Assembly: GCA_937868185.1 (NCBI GenBank)
Contig: CALMMG010000046.1
Location: 1-36,909, forward strand
Reading direction: 5' to 3'
Source of the DNA: an uncultured Pseudomonadota bacterium
GTDB lineage: Bacteria > Desulfobacterota > Desulfobulbia > Desulfobulbales > Desulfurivibrionaceae
DNA length: 36,909 nt
The translations under genes and the position numbers were made by a program. Positions 3,451 through 29,725 of this stretch are shown piece by piece. The notes below the pieces were generated by a model, which was not told the DNA's origin, ran no database searches, and was given only the letters and a program-made list of their open reading frames with translations. Position 1 is the stretch's first letter. Every line of letters starts with the position of its first letter.

Positions 3451-4731
3451 ATGCCGAAGCATGATACGCCTTTGTTGGACGAGCTCGAAAAAGGCCCGTG
3501 GCCGAGTTTCGTCACTGACCTGAAGCGTCAGGCAGAGAAAAAACCCGAATGTTTTGACATTCTGGGTCAGCTTGAGCTGTCTTTCAGAGACAAGATTACC
3601 CATTGGAAACACGGCGGCATCGTTGGTGTTTTCGGATACGGCGGCGGTATCGTTGGCCGTTACTCTGACGTTCCGGATCGGTTTCCCGGCGTGGCCCATT
3701 TTCACACCGTACGTTTGAACCAGCCTTCCAGTAAGTTTTACAGCGCCGCGAAACTTCGCGACATCTGTAACCTCTGGGAGAAATATGGTTCCGGTATGAC
3801 CAACATGCACGGTTCCACCGGCGACCTGGTTCTCCTCGGCACCACCACCCCGAACCTGGAGCCCCTGTTCTACGACCTGACTCACAACCTGAATCAGGAT
3901 CTCGGCGGTTCCGGCTCCAATCTGCGGACCCCTGAGTGTTGCCTCGGGCGGGCTCGTTGCGAATGGGGTTGCTACGACACCCAGGATCTCTGCCACACTC
4001 TGACCATGCATTACCAGGACGAGATCCATCGTCCGGCTTTCCCTTACAAGTTCAAGTTTAAATTCTCCGGTTGTCCCAACGACTGCGTTGCCGCCATCGC
4101 CCGTTCCGACTTTGCTGTTATCGGCACCTGGCGTGATGACATCCGCATCGACCAGGCTGCGGTTCAGGGCTACATCAAGGGCGAGTTTGCTCCCAACGCT
4201 GGTGCACATTCTGGCAAGGATTGGGGCAAGTTCGACATCAAAGCTGAAGTTCTTGATCTCTGCCCCACCGGCTGTATGTGGATGGAAGGCGATACCCTCA
4301 AGATCGACAACTCCGAATGCACCCGTTGCATGCATTGCCTCAACGTAATGCCCCGCGCACTGCGTCCCGGCCTCAAGCAGGGTGCAACCATCTGTGTTGG
4401 TGCTAAGGCCCCGATTCTTGACGGTGCTCAGTTCGCCACCATGACCATTCCCTTCCTTGAGATCAACAAGGATACCGAGTACGCAGAGGTTATCGAAGTT
4501 ATCGAGAAGATCTGGGATTGGTGGATGGAAGTCGGCAAAAACCGCGAGCGTGTTGGTGAGACCATCATGCGTATCGGGCTGCCCACCTTCCTGAAGGTTA
4601 TGGATGTTACGCCTGTGCCGCAGCATGTGAAAGAGCCCCGTTCCAACCCCTATGTATTCTGGCAGGAAGACGAGGTTGAGGGCGGCTTTGAGCGTGATGT
4701 TGTTGAATTCCGTAAGCGTAACGCCCAGTAA
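3451..4731 (+). CDS. dsrA: Dissimilatory sulfite reductase, alpha subunit
   Basis: A 426-residue DsrA of normal length. DsrAB reduces sulfite in the cytoplasm, with DsrC as partner, as the last step of dissimilatory sulfate or sulfite respiration. The siroheme-[4Fe-4S] ligands are visible as Cys164-x5-Cys170 and Cys208-x3-Cys212 (SGCPNDC). The inserted ferredoxin domain near residues 270-300 has Cys271, Cys275 and the CTRCMHC motif at 290-296. A strong AAGGGAGGA ribosome site precedes the ATG. Codon use is biased toward T/C-ending favoured codons compared with neighbours, as expected for one of the most highly expressed genes. dsrB follows after 66 bases. The presence of dsrD indicates the reductive type; reduction and disproportionation cannot be separated from sequence alone. 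Confidence 0.98.
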   Translation: MPKHDTPLLDELEKGPWPSFVTDLKRQAEKKPECFDILGQLELSFRDKITHWKHGGIVGVFGYGGGIVGRYSDVPDRFPGVAHFHTVRLNQPSSKFYSAAKLRDICNLWEKYGSGMTNMHGSTGDLVLLGTTTPNLEPLFYDLTHNLNQDLGGSGSNLRTPECCLGRARCEWGCYDTQDLCHTLTMHYQDEIHRPAFPYKFKFKFSGCPNDCVAAIARSDFAVIGTWRDDIRIDQAAVQGYIKGEFAPNAGAHSGKDWGKFDIKAEVLDLCPTGCMWMEGDTLKIDNSECTRCMHCLNVMPRALRPGLKQGATICVGAKAPILDGAQFATMTIPFLEINKDTEYAEVIEVIEKIWDWWMEVGKNRERVGETIMRIGLPTFLKVMDVTPVPQHVKEPRSNPYVFWQEDEVEGGFERDVVEFRKRNAQ

Positions 4732-4797
4732 GGTGCGTGGCTGTTGTTTGATACTACATTGAACTTATCTGATTTCACGATATAAGGAGGAATTATC

Positions 4798-5928
4798 ATG
4801 GGTTACGATCCAGCGAATCCGATGGCCGACAGAATCACAGACATCGGTCCGCCACACTACGAGCAGTTTTTTCCGCCGGTAGTTAAAAAGAACTACGGCA
4901 AATGGCTGTACCACGAGATCATTCAGCCCGGCGTTTTGATGCATAAGGGTGAGAGCGGCGACGAGTGCTACACCGTCCGTGTTGGTGCAGCCCGTCTTAT
5001 CAGTATTGAATTGATCCGTGAGATCTGCGACGTTGCCGATGCGCATTGCGATGGCTTCGTTCGTTGGACCACCCGGAACAATGTTGAGTTCATGGTTGAC
5101 TCCAAGGCCAAGGTTCAGCCTTTGCTGGACGATCTGAAGGGCCGCGGCAACCGTTTCCCCGTTGGCGGTACTGGCGCATCTGTCAGCAACTGCGTACACA
5201 CCCAGGGCTGGATCCACTGCCATACTCCGGCTACCGACGCTTCCGGCGTTGTTAAGGCGGTTATGGATGAGCTGTTCGACTACTTCGTCAGCCACAAGCT
5301 GCCGGCTCAGGTTCGTGTTGCCTTGGCTTGCTGCCTGAACATGTGCGGCGCGGTTCATGCTTCCGACATCGCCATCCTCGGCGTGCATCGTAAACCGCCG
5401 ATGATCGACCACGATGCGATCAGCGGCCTTTGCGAGTTGCCCCTGGCTATCTCCGCATGTCCTCTGGGTGCGGTAAAGCCTGCCACTGCGAAGAACAGCA
5501 AGGGTGAGGACGTCAAGTCCGTTAAGGTAAATGCCGAGCGTTGCATGTTCTGCGGTAACTGCTACACCATGTGTCCGGCCATGCCTTTGGCTGATCCGGA
5601 TGGTGACGGTATCGCAATCCTGGTTGGCGGTAAGGTTTCCAACTCCAGGTCCATGCCGATGTTCTCCAAGCTGGTTATTCCCTTCCTGCCCAACACTCCG
5701 CCCCGTTGGCCTGAGACCGTTGCCGCAGTGAAGAATATCCTTGAGACCTATGCCAAGGATGCTCGTAAGTATGAGCGTGTTGGCGAGTGGGCCGCTCGGA
5801 TCGGTTGGGAGAAATTCTTTGAAAAGACCGGTATTCCCTTCACCATCAAGTCCGTTGACGATTATCGTCTGGCCTATGATACTTGGAGAACTACCACTCA
5901 GTTCAAGTTCACCAGCCACATCAAGTAG
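4798..5928 (+). CDS. dsrB: Dissimilatory sulfite reductase, beta subunit
   Basis: A 376-residue DsrB that forms the alpha2beta2 core with DsrA and carries the catalytic siroheme. Visible landmarks are [18 protein letters not shown] near residues 133-150 and [13 protein letters not shown] at 178-190, which supply the cysteines for the siroheme-linked cluster. A ferredoxin domain contains [15 protein letters not shown] near residue 250. TAAGGAGG lies just before the ATG. Codon choice matches dsrA and suggests high expression. It is the second gene of the operon; dsrD follows after 117 bases that can form RNA hairpins. Confidence 0.98.
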
Positions 5929-21264: not shown

Positions 21265-22398
21265 TTGCGTAAAATTCTTTTTTCTGCCTTACTCCTTTCT
21301 GTCGTAGCCATCGGCCTGCTCCATCTTTTTACCCCCGGCGATTATCTCTTTTATCACAATACCTACCGGCGGCTCAGTTATTTCCCCATCGTCTTGGGTG
21401 GCCTCTGGTTTGGAGTTCCCGGCGGCCTAGGGCTGGCTGTGCTTTCCTCCATTGCCTTTATCCCCCATGTCCTTCTCTATGTCGGTCACGGAACCCAGGC
21501 TGTAAGCGAGTTGATGGAGATTGTTCTCTATCTCGCTGCCGGTCTGCTGGTTGGGGTGATCTCCGGGCGGCAGACCCGGCTCCGCGAACGGTACCAGCAG
21601 TTGTCCGAGAAATTACAGATCTCCTATGTCCAGCTTCAAGAAGAAACGGCCCAGCTCATCGAGGCGGAAACCAGGCTGGCAGCGGCGCAGAAATTTTCCG
21701 CCCTTGGCAGGCTGTCCGCTTCCCTGGCCCATGAAATAAAGAATCCCCTCGCTTCCATCAAGGGTACAGCGGAGATTCTCCGCGATGAATTTCCTGGGGA
21801 TCATCCCAAAAGGGAGTTTGTGGATATTCTGTTTAAAGAAACAGGGAGATTGCAGGACACGGTGGAGGAAATTCTTCATTACTCGAAGGGGCACCCCCAG
21901 GAAAGGGAAGAACATCTTGAGCCGTTGCCTGCGGTTGCCAAGCACGTTGGCGCCTTGCTGGAAAGGCAGTTGCGGGAAAAGAAGGTCCACTTTATCCTGC
22001 CAGAAAATGGTGAGGGCCAACATCTGCTGGTGGAAAGCGCCAAGTTTTCCCAGGTCCTTTTGAATCTAGGTCTTAACGCCTTGGACGCGGTCCAGCTCGG
22101 CGGCCATATTTGGCTGAGGGCTGAAGGCGGTGCGGATGGGGGGTGGCGGATCGCTGTCTGCGACGATGGGCCGGGCGTGCCGGAAGCGGAAAAGGAACGA
22201 ATCTTCGAACCGTTTTATTCCGGCAAATCTGAGGGTACCGGCCTCGGGCTACTGATCAGCCGGAAGATCGTGGAAAGCTACGGCGGCAGCCTCAGGGCTG
22301 CGGACCGTCCGGGAGGCGGGGCTTGTTTTGAGATTCACCTTCCCAGTAAAAATGGCGTGGACCTTGGTCATCCAGGGGTAAGGGCAGAGGCGAGTTGA
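21265..22398 (+). CDS. Membrane sensor histidine kinase (NtrB/ZraS-like)
   Basis: A 377-residue kinase. The first 100 residues hold about four membrane segments (1-22, 40-55, 57-75, 85-100) with hardly any periplasmic loop, so it probably senses within the membrane or through a partner. A coiled coil at 105-140 leads to the H-box LAHEIKNPLASI with phospho-acceptor His156. The ATPase domain shows the N-box (LNLGLNALDAV), DDGPGVP and GTGLGLLISRKI. I see no better start than TTG at 21265, preceded by a GGTGG-rich stretch; this is unusual. The stop overlaps the ATG of the response regulator by one base (TGATG). Confidence 0.92.
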   Translation: MRKILFSALLLSVVAIGLLHLFTPGDYLFYHNTYRRLSYFPIVLGGLWFGVPGGLGLAVLSSIAFIPHVLLYVGHGTQAVSELMEIVLYLAAGLLVGVISGRQTRLRERYQQLSEKLQISYVQLQEETAQLIEAETRLAAAQKFSALGRLSASLAHEIKNPLASIKGTAEILRDEFPGDHPKREFVDILFKETGRLQDTVEEILHYSKGHPQEREEHLEPLPAVAKHVGALLERQLREKKVHFILPENGEGQHLLVESAKFSQVLLNLGLNALDAVQLGGHIWLRAEGGADGGWRIAVCDDGPGVPEAEKERIFEPFYSGKSEGTGLGLLISRKIVESYGGSLRAADRPGGGACFEIHLPSKNGVDLGHPGVRAEAS

Positions 22399-23741
22399 TG
22401 AAACCCCGGATACTTCTGATTGATGATGACGCAAGCCTGCTGCGGGTTACCGAGTACAACTTGAGCAGTGCCGGTTTCAGCGTGTTCAGCGCAGCCTCGG
22501 GCCAGGAAGGGTTGGCGCTCTTTCGCAAGCACGACCCGGATCTGGTGATCACCGATGTGCAGCTCGGAGATATGAATGGTTTGCAGATTCTGGCGGCGGT
22601 GAAAAAGGAATCACCCGTGACCCCGGTATTGGTGATTACGGCCTTCGGGTCCATTGAACTGGCGGTCAAGGCCATGCAGGAAGGGGCCTTCACTTTTTTG
22701 GCCAAACCCTTTGATCGGGAGGCCCTGCGCCTTTCTTGTCGGAAAGCGTTGGAAATGCGGCAGCTGCATGAGCAGAAACAGCAGCTGAGCGGCGAAGTCA
22801 ATAAGCTTACGGGCACAGAGGGCATGGAAACTGCTAACTCGGCCATGGCTGAATTGCTCGATACGGCAAGGCGGGCGGCCAACAGCGAGGCCACCATCCT
22901 GATTGCCGGAGAATCGGGGACCGGCAAGGAGGTGCTGGCCAGGCTTATTCATCAGTACAGTCCCAGAGCCCAGGGGCCCATGGTGGCGGTGAACTGTGCC
23001 GCCATCCCAGAGAACCTTTTGGAAAGCGAACTCTTTGGTCATGTTAAAGGCGCTTTTACCGGGGCGGTGAGCAATCGCAAGGGGAGGTTTCAATCTGCCG
23101 CAGGCGGCACTCTGTTTCTCGATGAGATCGGCGAGTTGCGTTTGGACCTGCAGGCTAAGCTGCTTCGCGCCATTCAGGAAAGGGTGGTGGCACCGGTTGG
23201 CGCGGACCAGCCGGAACCGGTGGATGTCCGTTTGATTGCCGCTTCCAATCGGGATCTCTACGCGGCCATTGGCCAGGGGACTTTTCGGGAGGATCTCTAC
23301 TACCGGCTGGGGGTTATTCTCCTGCATCTCCCGCCCTTGCGGGAACGGCGGGAAGATATTCCCGGTCTGGTTGCCCATTTCCTCCTTAAACTGGGTGCTC
23401 CCGCCGGGGTGTGTTTTTCTGCCGGGGCCTTGTCTCGGCTCAAAGCCCATTCCTGGCCCGGCAATATCCGTGAGCTGCAGAACATTGTCGAGCGTGCAAT
23501 TATCCTGCGCAAGGGGCTGCTCATCGAGGCGGATGAACTCCAGCTTGGTGTTGTATCCCCGTCTGCAACACCAAACGGTCTTCCGGAAATCCCGGATGAG
23601 GGGTTGTCCCTGGAGTTAGTGGAGCAGGGCTTGATTAAAAAGGCCTTGGCCAAGGCAAACGGCAATCGCTCCGAGGCTGCCCGTCTGCTTAAGATCCCGC
23701 GTCACGTTCTGATCTATCGTCTGGAAAAATTCAAGATTTAA
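22398..23741 (+). CDS. NtrC-family sigma-54-dependent response regulator
   Basis: A 447-residue three-domain activator. The receiver domain has the acidic pair at 9-11, phospho-acceptor Asp53 and Lys103 (LAKPFD). The AAA+ domain has Walker A GESGTGKE (171-178), GAFTGA (218-223, the sigma-54 contact loop), LFLDEIGEL and RLIAASNRDL. The C-terminal Fis-type helix-turn-helix ends in GNRSEAARLLKIPRHVLIYRL. It is cotranscribed and translationally coupled with the kinase. A sigma-54 promoter and possible upstream binding sites lie between its stop and the next operon, so that operon is the obvious candidate target. Confidence 0.95.
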   Translation: MKPRILLIDDDASLLRVTEYNLSSAGFSVFSAASGQEGLALFRKHDPDLVITDVQLGDMNGLQILAAVKKESPVTPVLVITAFGSIELAVKAMQEGAFTFLAKPFDREALRLSCRKALEMRQLHEQKQQLSGEVNKLTGTEGMETANSAMAELLDTARRAANSEATILIAGESGTGKEVLARLIHQYSPRAQGPMVAVNCAAIPENLLESELFGHVKGAFTGAVSNRKGRFQSAAGGTLFLDEIGELRLDLQAKLLRAIQERVVAPVGADQPEPVDVRLIAASNRDLYAAIGQGTFREDLYYRLGVILLHLPPLRERREDIPGLVAHFLLKLGAPAGVCFSAGALSRLKAHSWPGNIRELQNIVERAIILRKGLLIEADELQLGVVSPSATPNGLPEIPDEGLSLELVEQGLIKKALAKANGNRSEAARLLKIPRHVLIYRLEKFKI

Positions 23742-23756
23742 TCTCATGTCTTCGTT

Positions 23757-23794
23757 GGAGAGTATTCTCTAAGCTCCTTGGTGAATATTCTTCA
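23757..23794 (+). promoter_or_regulatory. Possible upstream activator sites for the sigma-54 regulator
   Basis: Two short dyads lie 90-130 bases upstream of the sigma-54 promoter, at the distance usual for enhancer sites: GGAGAGTATTCTC (23757-23769) and GTGAATATTCTTC (23781-23793). They share the core TATTCT about 24 bases apart, which would place them roughly on the same DNA face. The dyads are short, so this is a suggestion only. Confidence 0.3.
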
Positions 23795-23879
23795 TTGTCA
23801 GCTGGTTTCCTTCCCGCTCATTTTTGACTTTATCCTGTAAACGCTGCCAGGCAAAGGGTTGCTATCTTTGGTCTTTGGG

Positions 23880-23895
23880 TGGCATGGTGCTTGCT
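23880..23895 (+). promoter_or_regulatory. Sigma-54 (-24/-12) promoter
   Basis: TGGCATG, four bases, TTGCT matches the sigma-54 consensus (TGGCAYR-N4-TTGCW) at every fixed position, with GG at 23881-23882 and GC at 23893-23894 ten bases apart. It lies 138 bases after the stop of an NtrC-type activator and 40-60 bases before the following operon, exactly where a regulated promoter would be. Confidence 0.8.
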
Positions 23896-23955
23896 TTATC
23901 TCTATGCGTTGAAAGGGGATGGTACGCAAGAATGGATGCAAGAAACGGGAGCGTG

Positions 23956-24138
23956 ATGCGATATATTTCTGGAGCATTGGTGCTTATTGGCATCCTGGCA
24001 TTGATTGCGTGGGGTTTTAGCAAACCGCCTTCTCTTGTCGGAGACCCAACGGCGCGGGTTTGCTTGCATTGCGAGCAAAATGGTTGCCCGGCAACAACGG
24101 CATCCTGGCGGGAGCTTTTTGAAAAATATTGGCGGTAA
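23956..24138 (+). CDS. Small membrane-anchored cysteine protein, first gene of sigma-54 operon
   Basis: A 60-residue protein starting MRYISGALVLIGILALIAW, one membrane segment or uncleaved signal anchor. A short periplasmic part contains CLHCEQNGCP, three cysteines that could bind metal or heme or form a disulfide. The start is set by GGGAG four bases upstream; an ATG at 23935 (67 residues) is also possible. The longer open frame back to 23824 overlaps the sigma-54 promoter and is unlikely to be translated. I do not recognise the family. It is the first of five closely spaced genes. Confidence 0.6.
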   Translation: MRYISGALVLIGILALIAWGFSKPPSLVGDPTARVCLHCEQNGCPATTASWRELFEKYWR

Positions 24139-24170
24139 TATTCCTAAAAAACGAAGCAAGGAGAATCGTG

Positions 24171-24635
24171 GTGAAAAAAATATCTGTAGTGGTTGCGGCG
24201 GTGGCGATGTCTGTGGTGTTGGTTGGTACGGCCATGGCGGGTTTTTGGGGAGATAAGATTCCCACCCTTACCCCGATCAAGGGTAGGCTGGAAATCCCGG
24301 TGGCTTCTGTCAATGACGGCAAGGCCCATCATTTTAAGGTTCAGGCCACCGATGGTGTCATGGTGACGTTCTTTGTCCTGAAAAGCAGCGACGGCGTCAT
24401 TCGGACGGCTCTGGACGCCTGCGATGTATGCTACCGGGCAGGCAAGGGGTATGAGCAGAGCGGTGATGATATGGTCTGTCAAAATTGCGGCATGCGTTTT
24501 CCCTCAGCCAAGATCAACGAGGTGAAAGGCGGCTGCAACCCGGCTCCTTTGACCAGAGTGATTGAAGGGGACAAGCTGGTGATCGCCATGGCCGACATCG
24601 ACCAGAACAGTTGGTATTGCAAATTTAAAAAGTAA
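24171..24635 (+). CDS. Periplasmic DUF2318 (Fe-S-containing-like) protein
   Basis: A 154-residue exported protein. The signal peptide MKKISVVVAAVAMSVVLVGTAMA is cleaved near residue 23. The DUF2318 core shows DACDVCYRAG (Cys84, Cys87), GDDMVCQNCGMRF (Cys103, Cys106) and Cys122 in GGCNP, plus histidines 53-54. In other bacteria DUF2318 domains occur beside p19/FTR1-type iron permeases and FtsX-like ABC transporters, where they are thought to handle iron or electrons. GTG start at 24171, with AAGGAG seven bases upstream; the frame is open to 24129 without a ribosome site. It is the second gene of the operon. Confidence 0.85.
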   Translation: MKKISVVVAAVAMSVVLVGTAMAGFWGDKIPTLTPIKGRLEIPVASVNDGKAHHFKVQATDGVMVTFFVLKSSDGVIRTALDACDVCYRAGKGYEQSGDDMVCQNCGMRFPSAKINEVKGGCNPAPLTRVIEGDKLVIAMADIDQNSWYCKFKK

Positions 24636-24650
24636 GGAGCAACACCACGG

Positions 24651-25091
24651 ATGGTTTACGATCTCGAAAAATACCGGGAAAAACGGGAGCGGGTTTTGGG
24701 GGTGAAAAAACGGGGGTTGGGCTTCGGTCGGGTGGCGGCCCTTGTCTCACTCGCTATTTTACTTGGTCTGGGGCTGGTGGTTATCCCCAAGTCCATCGCC
24801 TTTCTGCAAAACCGCCAGCTTGAAGATGCCATTTACAAACTGAACGGGGAGCGATCCGAGTCGGAACAGGCGCTGGCGGAACTCAAAAAGCAGGAGGGGG
24901 TGCGCGAGGTGGTGGTGGACGGGCACGGCTCGCGGGTTGTCGTTACGTACAACACGGGCGTGCTTGATACGGCAAGGATTTCCGCCTTTTTCCTGAAGCA
25001 GGGCGCACCGGCGGTGCTTCTCAATGAAGTGGGGCACAGCCAGCGGATGCACACCATGAAAAAGGAGGCTGCGGCGACCGGAGGCCAGTAG
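24651..25091 (+). CDS. Single-span membrane protein with heavy-metal-associated-like fold
   Basis: A 146-residue protein with a charged cytoplasmic N-terminus (VYDLEKYREKRERVL), one membrane segment (about 25-50) and a coiled stretch (RQLEDAIYKLNGERSESEQAL). The C-terminal region (about 75-125: LKKQEGVREVVVDGHGSRVVVTYNTG, ARISAFFLKQGAPAVLL) has the beta-alpha-beta pattern of HMA-type domains. It lacks the metal-binding CxxC, but histidines (DGHGS, VGHSQRMH) are present. The HMA likeness is my reading of the pattern and needs structure prediction. It sits 15 bases after the DUF2318 gene and before the ABC permease. Confidence 0.55.
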   Translation: MVYDLEKYREKRERVLGVKKRGLGFGRVAALVSLAILLGLGLVVIPKSIAFLQNRQLEDAIYKLNGERSESEQALAELKKQEGVREVVVDGHGSRVVVTYNTGVLDTARISAFFLKQGAPAVLLNEVGHSQRMHTMKKEAAATGGQ

Positions 25092-25118
25092 CCCGACCGG
25101 ACTGCGCGGAAAAAATAG

Positions 25119-26276
25119 ATGAAGCTCTATAATATCTCATGTAACAACCTCAAGCGCCGCAAGGGAAAGGTGATCTTTCTCGTCCTCGGTCTGGTGCTGG
25201 GAATATCCACCATTGTTACCCTCTTGTCCATTACGGAAAGTATGACCCGCGATATCGAGGACAGACTGGATCGGTTTGGCGCTAACATTGTCATGGTTCC
25301 TAAAAGCGAGAACCTTGCCCTGAGCTATGGCGGTATCACCGTGGGCGGGGTGAACTATGCGGTTCAGGAGTTTGCCGAAAAAGACATCGCCGGGATTCGG
25401 GAGATTGAAAACCGTGAGAATCTTGGCGCGGTGGCCCCCAAGGTTCTTGGCGCGGCCCAGGTCATGGGTAAACAGGTGCTCCTCATGGGGGTTGATTTTG
25501 CGGTGGAACTCCCGCTGAAAACCTGGTGGCATCTGGACGGCGCCGCTCCAGCTTCCCCGGGTGATCTGATCGTCGGCGCCGAGGCGGCGACGGCCCTGGA
25601 TCTTGCCATCGGCAATACTGTGCCCCTTGGCCGTCGGACCTTTACGGTGGTCGCCATCCTTCAGCCCACCGGGGCGGCGGAAGACAGCATGATCATCGGC
25701 GATCTCCATGCCGTGCAGGAGGTGTTGGGCAAGAAAGGCATTATTTCCCTCGTTGAAATCGCTGCCTTCTGTCGGGATTGCCCGATTACGGAGATGGTCT
25801 TGCAGCTTGCTGAGAAATTTCCCGGCGCCAAGGTGACGGCGCTCAAGCAGGCGGTGATGGCCAAGATGCAGTCCGTCGAGTTGTTCAAGGCCTTCAGTTA
25901 CGGCATTGCCGGGCTGGTGATCTTTATCGGCTCGCTTCTGGTTTTTGTCACTATGATGGGGGCGGTGAACGAGCGGACCCGCGAGATCGGCATTTTTCGG
26001 GCCATCGGTTTCAGGCGGGGCCATGTCATGCAGATCATCCTCCTTGAGGCCATCGTGGTCGGGTTTCTGGGCGGCTTTCTGGGGTTTGTCTGCGGCAATT
26101 TTATTGCCTGGGCGGTGCTGCCCCTGGTTATCCCCAATGGCACCTTTGTCGGAGTCAATCTTTCTCTCGGGGCCCTGGCCATCCTGCTTTCCATTTCCCT
26201 CAGCCTGCTGGCCAGCTACTATCCTGCCAGGAAGGGCAGTAGTCTTGATCCCAGCGAAGCGCTGCGGGCCTTGTAA
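25119..26276 (+). CDS. FtsX/MacB-type ABC transporter permease
   Basis: A 385-residue permease. N-terminal membrane helix at about 18-40, then a large periplasmic MacB-PCD-like domain (about 45-255). Three more helices follow near 262-285, 308-335 and 355-375, giving the four-helix FtsX layout. MMGAVNERTREIGIFRAIGFRRG is the coupling-helix signature and YYPARKGSSLDPSEALRAL is the typical end. Such transporters couple ATP hydrolysis to periplasmic work or export rather than classical import. Homologous permeases accompany DUF2318 and iron genes in other anaerobes. No MacA-like adaptor is present, unlike macrolide exporters. Confidence 0.92.
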   Translation: MKLYNISCNNLKRRKGKVIFLVLGLVLGISTIVTLLSITESMTRDIEDRLDRFGANIVMVPKSENLALSYGGITVGGVNYAVQEFAEKDIAGIREIENRENLGAVAPKVLGAAQVMGKQVLLMGVDFAVELPLKTWWHLDGAAPASPGDLIVGAEAATALDLAIGNTVPLGRRTFTVVAILQPTGAAEDSMIIGDLHAVQEVLGKKGIISLVEIAAFCRDCPITEMVLQLAEKFPGAKVTALKQAVMAKMQSVELFKAFSYGIAGLVIFIGSLLVFVTMMGAVNERTREIGIFRAIGFRRGHVMQIILLEAIVVGFLGGFLGFVCGNFIAWAVLPLVIPNGTFVGVNLSLGALAILLSISLSLLASYYPARKGSSLDPSEALRAL

Positions 26277-26285
26277 GGAGCACCT

Positions 26286-26981
26286 ATGCAAAGAAAAGAA
26301 AACGGAGTGCGTCATCTCATCGAAATCAGGGATATCGGCAAGGATTACCAGGTCGGGGCGAACACGGTGAGCGCCATCCGGCACATGAACTTTCAGGTGG
26401 ACGACGGGGAGTTCATCAGCATCATGGGGCAGTCCGGCTCCGGGAAAAGCACCCTGCTGGCCGTGTTGGGCGGGCTCAACCATCCCAGTCGGGGGCAGAT
26501 TTTGGTCGATTCCCTGGATGTTTATGGCCTGAGTAGCGAACAGCGGGCGGATTTTCGCAGCGAATATATCGGTATTATTTTCCAATCGTTCCAGCTCATT
26601 CCTTACCTGACGGTGCTGGAAAATATCAAGCTGCCCATGGCCATCACCGGGATTTCTGCTAAGGAGCAAGATGGTATGGCCCGTTCGGTTCTCGAAAAAG
26701 TGGGGCTTGGCCCCAAGGCGGAACGGTTGCCGGATCAGCTTTCCGGCGGTGAGCAGGAACGGGTCGCTATTGCCAGGGCCATTGTCAACCGGCCCCCCAT
26801 CCTGCTGGCTGACGAGCCCACCGGCAGCCTTGACAGTGAGACGGCTGAAGGGGTCATGGCCCTACTGCGTCAGCTGAACGAGGAAGGGTTGACCATCATC
26901 ATGGTGACTCATAACCCGGACGCTTGCCGCCATGGTGATCGGACCATCCTGGTTCGGGACGGTCTCTGTCTGACGCAGTAA
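26286..26981 (+). CDS. ABC transporter ATP-binding protein (LolD/MacB type)
   Basis: A 231-residue ATPase. Walker A is GQSGSGKST (48-56), Q-loop near 100 ([18 protein letters not shown]), signature [14 protein letters not shown] (152-165), Walker [13 protein letters not shown] (172-183), H-loop MVTHNPD. It pairs with the preceding FtsX-type permease, nine bases away. AAGGAG precedes the ATG with normal spacing. It is the last gene of the putative sigma-54 operon. Confidence 0.95.
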
Positions 26982-27014
26982 TTTTCCCAAAAAACAAACA
27001 AAGGACAATTATCT

Positions 27015-27044
27015 TTGACAGTATTCTCCTGAAAATTATACAAT
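27015..27044 (+). promoter_or_regulatory. Predicted promoter of the PhnD-like/MCP pair
   Basis: TTGACA (27015-27020) followed by either TATACA (27037-27042, 16-base spacer) or TACAAT (27039-27044, 18-base spacer). It gives a leader of about 135 bases before the binding-protein gene. Confidence 0.5.
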
Positions 27045-27186
27045 AAATACTGTGTGAGTATTACTACCTATGCGATTGTGTTTTCGGTGCAGCCCTTGGT
27101 TTGTACCGGAATGTCTCTTGTCGTTTCTGTCTGGGGGCCCGGATTATCTGGGAAAAACAGGAAACAATACAGCAAGGAGAAGTACT

Positions 27187-28080
27187 ATGGGAAGCAGGAT
27201 GAAGAAGATCGGGATGATGGGTATGGCCATTGTGGCCAGTGTCATGTTTGTTGCTGCGGCTCAGGCGGAAATTAAGATCGGCATTCTGGCTCTGCGGGGT
27301 GCGCCCAAGGTCATGGAGGAATGGGGTGCGACCGGAGAGTACCTTACCGGTAAGATGGGAGAACCGGTTACCATCATGCCCCTGGAATTTGCCGCTATTG
27401 AGCCTATGTTGAAAGACGGCAAGATTGATTTCGTGCTGGCAAATTCCGCTTTTTATGTGGAGATGGAAAAACTTTACGGTGCCAAGGCTATTGCCATGCA
27501 AGTCAACTCGGCCGGCGGCAAGCCGGTCAAGGAGTTCGGTGGGGTAATCTTCGTGCGTAAGGACAGCCCCATTAATACTCTTGCAGACCTCAAGGGCAAG
27601 AAGTTCATGGTGGTGAAGGCCTCTTCTTTCGGCGGCGGCCAGATGGCCCTGCGGCTTTTGCTCCAGAACGGCATTGATTACAAAAAAGATTTTGCCGAGT
27701 TCAAGGAAGGTGGTAAGCATGATAACGTGGTTCTCGCCGTGAAGAACGGGGCCATGGATGCTGGCACCGTGCGCACCGATGTTATGGAGGCTATGGAAAA
27801 GGAAGGCAAGATCTCCATGTCCGAGTTTAAAATTATCAACCAGGTCAAAGACAGCTTCCCATTTGTACACAGCACCGAGTTGTATCCCGAGTGGCCCATG
27901 GCTGCGGCAAAGCATGTTGATGCTGCCAAGGTCAGTAAACTCGCCGAGGCCCTTATCGCGGTAAAGCCTGATTCCGAAGCGGCAAAAAAAGCCGGAATCC
28001 TTGGCTGGGCGCAGCCTGCCGATTTCAAAAACGTGCGGGAATGTCTGAAGGCGCTTAAGTATGGGGCCTTTGCCAATTAG
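27187..28080 (+). CDS. PhnD-type periplasmic substrate-binding protein
   Basis: A 297-residue exported binding protein. Signal peptide with AQA-EI cleavage near residue 27. The mature start EIKIGILALRGAPKVMEEWG, the segment IDFVLANSAFYVEM and LADLKGKKFMVVKASSFGGGQ place it in the phosphate/phosphonate (PhnD) binding family. No transporter permease or ATPase of the Phn type is near, and the next gene, 19 bases on, is a chemoreceptor. This suggests sensing of a ligand rather than uptake. AAGGAG just before the ATG at 27187 fixes the start; the upstream frame extension from 27070 lacks protein character. Ligand unknown. Confidence 0.88.
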   Translation: MGSRMKKIGMMGMAIVASVMFVAAAQAEIKIGILALRGAPKVMEEWGATGEYLTGKMGEPVTIMPLEFAAIEPMLKDGKIDFVLANSAFYVEMEKLYGAKAIAMQVNSAGGKPVKEFGGVIFVRKDSPINTLADLKGKKFMVVKASSFGGGQMALRLLLQNGIDYKKDFAEFKEGGKHDNVVLAVKNGAMDAGTVRTDVMEAMEKEGKISMSEFKIINQVKDSFPFVHSTELYPEWPMAAAKHVDAAKVSKLAEALIAVKPDSEAAKKAGILGWAQPADFKNVRECLKALKYGAFAN

Positions 28081-28099
28081 GGTATCCGGGAGATCGTGA

Positions 28100-29725
28100 A
28101 TGGCTTTGAAGAAAAGAGGGATTGCTGCTAAGTTTATTCTCATCGTTTCGATTCTGGCGCAGGGGTTGATGGTCGTGCTGGCGGCGGTGGCCATTTACAC
28201 CGCCAGCCATTCCCAAAGTAAGCAGGCAGAAGGATTTGTCAGTCGACTGAAGTCTGAACAGGCAGAGCAGGAAAAGCTGCTGTCCGGTGAGTTGAGAAAA
28301 AAGGGGGGTTCCATCGCGGCTCTCCTGGCCCAGACGGGTTCGGCCCTGATCATTGGCTATGATTTTGATTCGCTGACCAAGCTTGCGGACAACGCCAAGA
28401 ATGATGAAGATATTGTCTCGGTGGTGTTTTACGGCAAGGACAAGAAGGTGCTTGCCCAGGCCAAGGATCAGAAGGAAGCCAAGGAGACTCTGAGCAAGGA
28501 TATTCTGCTCGATGGTAAGGCTATTGGATCTGTCGAGGTGGGCTTAAGCTTTGCCGGGGTAGAGAAAAATTCCGATGAAGTTTCCCGCCGCATCGAGGAA
28601 CAGCTGCGGACAACCCAGGAGGAATTGACAGCGGCTTCTTGGCGGCTGGGGATTATCATCCTTCTCGCCATCGGCGGGGTGGTGGTGTCTCTCTGTTTTG
28701 TTGTGTACGGGTGTCTTTCTCGCTTTGTTATAACCCCGGTTGGTGGGATCATTGCCGGGCTGGAGGACTGCGCTACCCAAGTGACTTCTGCCTCGGCGCA
28801 GCTTTCCGGTTCGTCCCATCAACTGGCCGAAGGCGCTTCCGAGGAGGCTGCCTCCCTGGAAGAGACTTCTGCCTCTTTGGAAGAGGTCTCGACCATGGCT
28901 CGGCGCAATGCCGACAATGCTGCCGAGTGCAATTTGCTTATGCGTGAGGTGAACACGGTGATGGGCAAGGCCAATCAGTCCATGGCCGCGCAAACAGTGG
29001 CCATGGGGGAAATATCCAAGGCCAGCGAACAGACCTCGAAGATCATCAAAACCATTGATGAGATCGCCTTCCAGACCAACCTGCTGGCCTTAAACGCCGC
29101 GGTCGAGGCGGCTCGGGCTGGTGAGGCCGGGGCGGGGTTTGCCGTGGTGGCTGACGAGGTTCGTAATTTGGCCATGCGGGCGGCAGAAGCGGCCCGCAAT
29201 ACTGCGGATCTTATCGAAGGCACCGTGAAAAAGGTGAAAGAGGGTGAGGAGCTGCTGGTCAGAACCAATGATGATTTCTGTGAGGTTGCTGAGGTGGCGG
29301 CCAAGGTTGGCAGTCTGGTGGATGAAATCGCCATTGCCTCCAATGAGCAGACCACGGGACTTGACCAGGTCAATGCAGCCATTGCGGAGATTGACCGGGT
29401 AACCCAGCAGACTGCGGCCAGTTCGGAAGAGGCGGCCAGTGCTTCGGAAGAGCTGAGTGCCCAAGCAGAATATATGAAAAATTATGTGGAAGATCTGGCT
29501 GTGCTGGTCAGCGGTGGGGTAACATCTGGCGCTGGCACGGAAAAATCTGGGGCAGCGCCGAAAACGGGGCGACCGGTGAGCAGGAAGTCCGGGTCAGCTC
29601 TAACTGCACCTCCCGTTGCAAAGGCGGTAGGCAAGAAGCCCAAAGCTATTGCGGCTCCTGTTTCTGGGAAGAAAACGGGCAAGGACGTTATTCCCTTTGA
29701 CGAGGATGCATTCGAGGATTTTTAG
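28100..29725 (+). CDS. Methyl-accepting chemotaxis protein with CheR-tether-like tail
   Basis: A 541-residue chemoreceptor. Membrane helices at about 11-34 and 183-205 flank a periplasmic sensor of about 150 residues ([31 protein letters not shown]). A cytoplasmic coiled-coil follows, with the signalling tip [21 protein letters not shown] and [17 protein letters not shown]. The C-terminus has a 60-residue Lys/Ala/Pro-rich linker ending in AFEDF, which fits the [HFYW]-x2-[HFYW] pattern of the CheR-docking pentapeptide. It is coupled to the PhnD-like protein, its probable ligand-presenting partner. Chemotaxis toward an oxyanion is plausible but unproven. Confidence 0.92.

Follow-up and report, generated by a model that had tools for sequence, protein, structure and literature searches.

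A 36,909-nt stretch of DNA (contig CALMMG010000046.1; hereafter, the window, whose coordinates are used throughout) from an uncultured bacterium of the GTDB family Desulfurivibrionaceae (order Desulfobulbales) encodes a sensor histidine kinase and an NtrC-type sigma-54 activator, followed by two palindromic sites, a -24/-12 promoter, and five tightly packed genes. These five genes, separated by gaps of 32, 15, 27, and 9 bp, encode in order a small cysteine-rich protein, a DUF2318 protein, a single-span protein with an HMA-like domain, an FtsX-type permease, and an ATP-binding cassette (ABC) ATPase (Table 1). A first-pass annotation of the sequence had described this arrangement, every element of which we recover, and had proposed that the regulator controls the operon and that the operon handles a metal, for which iron was the favored candidate. 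We propose instead that this is probably a stress operon for soft, monovalent metals of the copper/silver type, under the control of the sigma-54 two-component system encoded beside it, and that one sensor-regulator pair appears to switch on both this five-gene machine and a Cu/Ag export pump through the same DNA sites.

Table 1. Genes and predicted regulatory features of the two-component system and the adjoining operon
Feature	Coordinates	Strand	Evidence and remarks
Sensor histidine kinase, HisKA + HATPase	21265..22398	+	PF00512/PF02518; three conserved His in membrane sensor
NtrC-type sigma-54 activator: receiver, AAA+ with GAFTGA, Fis-type helix-turn-helix	22395..23741	+	PF00072, PF00158, PF02954
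Upstream activator site 1 (predicted), core GAGTATTC at 23760	23758..23773	no strand	Motif and conservation
Upstream activator site 2 (predicted), core GAATATTC at 23783	23781..23794	no strand	Motif and conservation
Sigma-54 promoter -24/-12 (predicted), TGGCATGGTGCTTGCT	23880..23895	+	Pattern match and conservation
Small membrane-anchored protein, Cys-rich tail CLHCEQNGCPATTASW	23932..24138	+	Start codon inferred; 23956 also possible
DUF2318 protein (FtrD-like), 154 aa, free-standing	24171..24635	+	PF10080, E 1.6e-31; CxxC-x15-CxxC-x15-C; signal-peptide-like start by eye
Single-span protein, Cys-free HMA-like domain, cytoplasmic-type N-terminus	24651..25091	+	PF00403, E 0.009, under cut-off
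FtsX/MacB-type ABC permease	25119..26276	+	PF02687, E 1.2e-18; PF12704 (MacB_PCD), E 4e-14
MacB/LolD-type ABC ATPase	26286..26981	+	PF00005, E 6e-34

When both strands of the window are scanned, the promoter TGGCATGGTGCTTGCT is the sole match to TGGCA[CT]N5TTGC[AT]. It had been called a perfect match to the -24/-12 consensus, which is a slight overstatement: it carries T at a position where the general consensus, which we take to start with TGGCACG, carries C, and close relatives usually have T there as well. The two dyads, GAGTATTCTC (23760) and GAATATTC (23783), start 23 bp apart with a spacer of 15 bp, and the start of the first core lies 120 bp before that of the promoter. In a 14-row alignment of upstream regions, mean column identity is 0.92 and 1.00 over the two dyads, 0.67 between dyads and promoter, 0.56 after the promoter, and 0.89 over the promoter itself, the last value being partly a product of construction because each row had been excised on the basis of its promoter match (the dyad values are unaffected). 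The core of site 2 is invariant in all 14 rows.

DUF2318 (PF10080) scored above cut-off in 15 of the 27 genomes of the family and in 63 of the 257 genomes of the order, and 54 stretches around DUF2318 genes were compared. The order kinase, regulator, small or HMA protein, DUF2318, HMA-like protein, FtsX, ABC ATPase recurs in the window's own family and in several others, as does the linkage of the DUF2318, HMA-like, and FtsX genes with a kinase/NtrC pair that the first-pass annotation had singled out; at two loci (L073 and L074), regulator and DUF2318 genes lie up to ~6 kb apart. Most loci of families f6 and f7 possess DUF2318, FtsX, and ABC genes without the HMA-like gene and without orthologues of the kinase and regulator. 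At four of six such f6/f7 loci inspected (L082, L085, L090, and L096), an exported-looking small protein rich in cysteine and histidine precedes the HMA-less genes; it has no Pfam match in the two cases tested and is possibly a parallel metal-binding partner.

To score conservation of the regulatory elements, up to 1,300 bp upstream of DUF2318 was scanned for a site pair (no more than one mismatch in either core and two in total) and, 60 to 150 bp after it, a -24/-12 match in which a single mismatch was tolerated, counting one operon per genome, the window included. Seven loci were left out beforehand: L054, whose genome also contributes L147; L058, with little sequence upstream; L071, where DUF2318 has neither HMA-like nor FtsX neighbors; L084 and L087, both on short contigs; and L088 and L097, which are Fet-like. 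Site pair and promoter occur together in 19 of 28 HMA-bearing operons (15/15 in the window's family and 4/13 outside it) and in a single one (L068) of 21 DUF2318 loci without an HMA-like gene; none of 1,400 mononucleotide shuffles and none of 896 other 1,300-bp tiles yielded the combination. The f2 loci, which have a clear TGGCACA-type promoter and no qualifying pair, were scored as misses. Promoter and dyads are thus conserved in close relatives, one of the two points on which the first-pass annotation had staked its proposal, and are present in every own-family operon; control of the operon by the regulator through the sigma-54 promoter is very probable. At L068 (8974-10080), from an f8 genome, the site pair is followed by DUF2318 on its own, and a gene of the Metal_resist family lies just before DUF2318 on the same strand.

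The activator has GAFTGA, Walker A and B, and phospho-acceptor motifs, and the kinase has H, N, G1, and G2 motifs. Hydrophobic peaks at the N-terminus of the kinase indicate three to four membrane segments, which is compatible with the four assigned previously but does not prove them. Three histidines of this sensor region (H32, H43, and H80 in L052 numbering; positions 20, 31, and 68 of the window protein, as deduced from motif starts) are kept in 29/29 orthologues (rows of >300 bits and >330 aa), whether linked to cus or to DUF2318 genes, and the region has no second match in its own genome, which is 86% complete. Orthologous kinase and regulator genes adjoin cus operons in other families. 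In a midpoint-rooted tree of 55 rows, the window regulator and ten cus-linked regulators fall into a 34-row group separate from NtrC paralogues, with a support of 91/99 that is not starred by the program and in a tree where some distant receivers have very long branches. DUF2318-linked and cus-linked regulators hardly vary in their recognition helix, RHVLIYRLEKF, and identity to the window over the helix-turn-helix is 65 to 97% for the 33 other members of the group versus 18 to 47% for seven other NtrC-type rows.

The presumed second target lies elsewhere in the same genome. There (G000:C165; L150/L161), unlinked to the DUF2318 operon, GAATATTC-N12-GGATATTC and then TGGCATGCTCCTTGCT stand upstream of a gene row encoding YtkA, an outer membrane factor (OMF), CusB, and CusA. 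This site was located via the YtkA gene; scanning the genome for pairs spaced by 14 bp, with three mismatches tolerated, returned zero further sites because the spacers are 15 bp in the window pair and 12 bp in the cus pair. The CusA protein belongs to TIGR00914 (NCBIfam name, CusA/CzcA family), scores 1064 bits against Escherichia coli CusA and 467 bits against ZneA, and, in the part of the alignment shown, has methionine at the positions of M573, M623, and M672, which we take to be the Cu(I) methionine triad of CusA.

Within the genus, 13 of 17 genomes have a YtkA gene of the cus type, and the full YtkA-OMF-CusB-CusA row is seen in five (L123, L124, L125, L126, and the own-genome L161). Eleven of the 13 YtkA loci have >350 bp of upstream sequence (L157 has only 170 bp and L160 only 1 bp), and all 11 contain two cores separated by 20 to 22 bp, each with one mismatch or none; the pair is exact in L148, L153, L154, L158, and L159 and has one mismatch in L151. 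Ten of these 11 loci also have a -24/-12 match containing no more than one mismatch.

Across the order, exact pairs of GAATATTC 13 to 16 bp apart number 60 and are distributed over 51 of 252 genomes, compared with one genome for a reversed-pattern control; the 60 do not include the window pair, which has one mismatch. Neighbors were classed by phmmer and by eye, for which 40 further stretches were taken, and the resulting tallies are raw counts without a chance rate. Periplasmic HMA, DUF2318, or HMA-like-FtsX-ABC genes adjoin 24 of the pairs, cus genes alone adjoin 23 (at G011, YtkA alone at a contig end), and one adjoins only a regulator fragment. Two of the 24 HMA-side pairs lie between divergent HMA-side and cus operons (L071 and L133; G040 and G216), and at G047 and G215:C65 the pair adjoins just the HMA beginning of a long reading frame and a lone DUF2318 gene, respectively. 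Pfam matches among representative neighbors include an outer membrane efflux protein, a YHS protein, a CusB-type adaptor with or without a heavy-metal-binding domain, and YtkA. In the wider phylum the exact pair is rare (10/395 genomes, against 3/395 for the reversed-pattern control), and we rejected the notion of its being widespread there. Beyond the order, exact pairs in L163 and L166 adjoin related NtrC regulators and one in L165 adjoins DUF2318 and FtsX genes, a hint that the regulon reaches further.

In relatives, the position of the small protein is occupied by a protein that looks exported, carries one or two HMA domains (CxxC), and has a C...CxATxxSW-type tail. Among 13 own-genus rows, the HMA CxxC is kept in 5 and lost in 8, the window among the losses, and the cysteine tail is kept in all 13; the tail pattern fits 24 of 34 distinct proteins, all 10 misses coming from f8 genomes, which have two HMA proteins with variant ends. 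A profile of the intact protein matches the HMA domains of copper ATPases (8.9e-61 for six-repeat ATP7B) and CopZ (1.2e-9), with MerP and the domains of zinc and cadmium ATPases lower in the match list. The small protein is thus an apparent remnant of a periplasmic, copper-chaperone-like HMA protein that has shed its HMA domain, and because the protein shrinks while the tail stays, the tail may be a functional element. Another family provides a further case in which the HMA domain is gone and the tail retained (L074:8588-8842, in reversed-locus coordinates).

The single-span protein has a conserved start (KYR.KRE.VLGV..R) and zero conserved cysteines in 13 aligned relatives. The best PDB matches to its profile are ATP7A/B-type, MerP, and CopZ-type proteins (E 0.002 to 0.5), and its profile-profile alignment with the periplasmic HMA proteins is collinear and insignificant (probability 1.1). 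The DUF2318 protein has no PDB relative at an E value of 1. The permease matches MacB, LolC/E, and other FtsX-type permeases in the PDB, and the ATPase, with Walker A, LSGGE, Walker B, and His switch present, matches the LolD/FtsE/MacB-type subfamily. Permease and ATPase are separate genes, and Pfam searches of the operon genes reveal no MacA-type adaptor or TolC partner.

Taken together, the operon probably handles a metal, as first proposed, and that metal is most likely copper or silver and not iron, because of the CusCBA-type operon with matching sites, the lack of FTR1 and P19 matches in the family, the cysteine spacing of DUF2318, and the apparent HMA ancestry of the small protein. We envisage that the kinase would detect Cu(I) or Ag(I) outside the cytoplasmic membrane by means of its conserved histidines, that the regulator, once phosphorylated, would bind the two palindromes as dimers, and that it would then activate the sigma-54 holoenzyme (E-sigma-54) at both the DUF2318 operon and the unlinked cus operon. 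The operon would specify a periplasmic and membrane machine comprising an HMA chaperone (reduced in the window's lineage to a membrane-anchored, cysteine-rich tail), a thiol-rich DUF2318 protein, and a membrane-anchored, Cys-free HMA-like subunit that may stand in for a MacA adaptor; the FtsX/MacB-type ABC pair would most likely supply the power for releasing or transferring periplasmic metal by conformational change, feeding efflux and not iron import.

Several observations weigh against this account. As regards regulation, 9 of the 28 HMA-bearing operons, all from other families, fail the site-plus-promoter scan; L062 and L065 have no kinase or regulator orthologue within the compared stretch; one own-genus cus locus (L155) has no promoter match; and 12 of the 60 exact pairs have no neighbor of the expected kinds or were unexamined (G156, G167, and G208 unexamined; G104, 3 kb only). 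At 12 of 14 cus loci of families f6, f7, and f13, the best -24/-12 match is indistinct from shuffles (only the scores of L114 and L142 are reached by at most 1 of 300 shuffles), which disfavors a uniform sigma-54 claim in those families, although several of the others keep GG/GC-type remnants ~130 bp from the site. As regards function, the small protein of the window is without a metal-binding HMA domain, the single-span protein resembles HMA domains only weakly, HMA and heavy-metal-efflux resistance-nodulation-division (HME-RND) proteins can take other metals too, and a homologous DUF2318/FtsX/ABC module serves iron uptake in Campylobacter jejuni, going by the available portion of PMC10783030. 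Finally, RND efflux and metal P-type ATPase genes of Desulfovibrio alaskensis are described as down-regulated under Cu(II) in the passages available from PMC8836040, so a simple copper-induced pump is not favored in that species.

Four other explanations deserve consideration. The machine could serve copper supply, loading copper into a periplasmic or membrane enzyme instead of detoxifying it. The combination of HMA chaperone-like proteins and an ABC pair is reminiscent of Nos-type maturation, and the operon is separate from that of the efflux pump; its activator sites, however, match those of the pump, which points to excess and not shortage, and no cuproenzyme family was found by Pfam among the operon genes and the two genes after them, so we consider this role unlikely. 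A true signal among other soft or borderline metals (Zn, Cd, Hg, or Pb), as in the sigma-54-dependent ZraSR system, strikes us as improbable to a like degree. The kinase and regulator resemble the AtoS/ZraS and AtoC/ZraR models, with scores under the cut-offs (157 versus 479 bits for ZraS and 376 versus 760 bits for ZraR), and the Metal_resist family, represented beside the site pair at L068, is presumably ZraP-type; against this stand the Cu/Ag character of the linked CusA, by score and methionine triad, and the HMA profile, for which copper proteins rank above mercury and zinc proteins.

Iron acquisition by a reduced or altered Fet (FetMP-FetABCDEF) module, close to the first-pass annotation's choice, has little left to commend it. 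DUF2318, an FtsX-type permease, and an ATPase do form a core common to both. DUF2318 genes almost always map with an iron system and are interpreted as a mark of iron uptake in the passages of PMC6083913 at hand, and C. jejuni fetA, fetB, fetC, and fetD mutants grow poorly at low iron according to the accessible part of PMC10783030, where the biochemical function of FetA, the C. jejuni DUF2318 protein, is stated to be unknown. Searches at an E value of 0.001 found FTR1 (FetM) in 0/27 and P19 (FetP; PF10634, which we take to be the P19 family) in 0/27 genomes of the family, of which 12 reach 90% completeness with contamination no higher than 5%. Among the genes of 21265-29725 there is no thioredoxin match and only one FtsX gene.

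The cysteines of DUF2318 are spaced x15/x15 in the window and at 52 of the 54 loci; the spacing is x13/x14 in L088 and L097, in which the domain is embedded in proteins of 424 to 495 aa, and the latter spacing fits the C. jejuni pattern CxxC-x13-CxxC-x14,15-C given in the same portion of PMC6083913. L088, another locus from the order, is of the Fet type, with FTR1 (E 1.2e-30), DUF2318 plus YHS, two FtsX permeases (versus one in the window's operon), an ATPase, and a thioredoxin-like gene; P19 was not noticed there, although no P19 search was made at that locus. The genome of L088 has no exact site pair. The window's operon apparently shares its control with a CusCBA-type operon. Iron as the first-choice metal is therefore rejected on the FTR1 and P19 searches and the cysteine spacing, and it is further disfavored by the cus-type operon with matching sites and by the copper-chaperone-type small protein; the reading of the operon as a reduced Fet system is likewise unsupported. 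Least probable of all is an envelope-stress role, as a MacB-like export or lipoprotein/peptide machine with an incidental metal link, for which the MacB/Lol/FtsX-type permease and ATPase speak but against which there is no MacA-type adaptor in the operon, the companions are HMA and DUF2318 proteins, and the common sites adjoin metal-pump genes.

Some neighboring genes lie outside this argument. A PhnD-type binding protein (27187-28080; PF12974, also TtrS-sensor-domain-like) adjoins a methyl-accepting chemotaxis protein (28100-29725), with which it possibly forms a binding-protein/chemoreceptor pair, and the two stay next to the operon in several own-family genomes. Genes resembling dsrA and dsrB (sulfite reductase), by eye only, lie at 3451-5928.

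In the titles, abstract openings, and passages of the literature surveyed, which includes few subscription papers, we recognized no published description of a sigma-54 copper regulator with DUF2318/FtsX genes. A term search of the main text of PMC4641369, on the sigma-54 regulome of Desulfovibrio vulgaris, gave zero hits for copper, heavy metal, efflux, FtsX, GAATATTC, and ZraR, and FtsX and CusA do not occur in the available part of PMC11247825, on nickel in cable bacteria. How sulfate reducers maintain copper homeostasis is stated to be unknown in the available passages of PMC8836040; on this question, the window offers a concrete regulator, a DNA site, and two operons. Our findings suggest that, in uncultured relatives of sulfate reducers, a protein module ascribed to iron uptake has been recruited to handle copper-like metals, and a DUF2318 protein apparently wired to a copper-type pump, with another cysteine spacing and HMA partners, would provide a test of the general role of the DUF2318-FtsX-ABC module. 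More tentatively, and with somewhat less than even confidence, we suggest that the operon encodes a new ABC-powered periplasmic Cu(I)/Ag(I) complex that acts in parallel with CusCBA, under an NtrC-type sigma-54 copper system with histidine-based membrane sensing, and that DUF2318-FtsX-ABC is a general metal redox or transfer module of which iron uptake is one use.

Four known systems bear comparison with that of the window. With Fet (FetMP-FetABCDEF) it has in common the association of DUF2318, an FtsX-type permease, and an ABC ATPase, but it differs in having none of FTR1, P19, or thioredoxins, a DUF2318 domain with x15/x15 spacing that is unfused to membrane helices or YHS, one permease in place of two, added HMA proteins, and a sigma-54 two-component control apparently common with cus. 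The MacAB and Lol mechanotransmission systems likewise pair an FtsX/MacB_PCD permease with a MacB/LolD-type ATPase, but the window's operon has the MacB parts unfused and, in place of a MacA or TolC partner, a single-span HMA-like protein. The ZraSR-ZraP system of E. coli is a sigma-54-dependent, metal-responsive system composed of a kinase, an NtrC-type activator, and a periplasmic metal-binding protein; the window has each of these components together with a sigma-54 promoter, but its kinase is nearly without a periplasmic domain, its target genes are others, and its scores are far under the ZraS and ZraR cut-offs. Last, CusCBA/CusRS of E. coli is a copper-silver efflux pump under two-component control by the OmpR-type CusR. 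Two-component control of a CusCBA-type pump, apparently exerted via like sites, recurs in the window's genome, but there the regulator is of the NtrC/sigma-54 type, and an extra DUF2318-HMA-FtsX-ABC operon is added.

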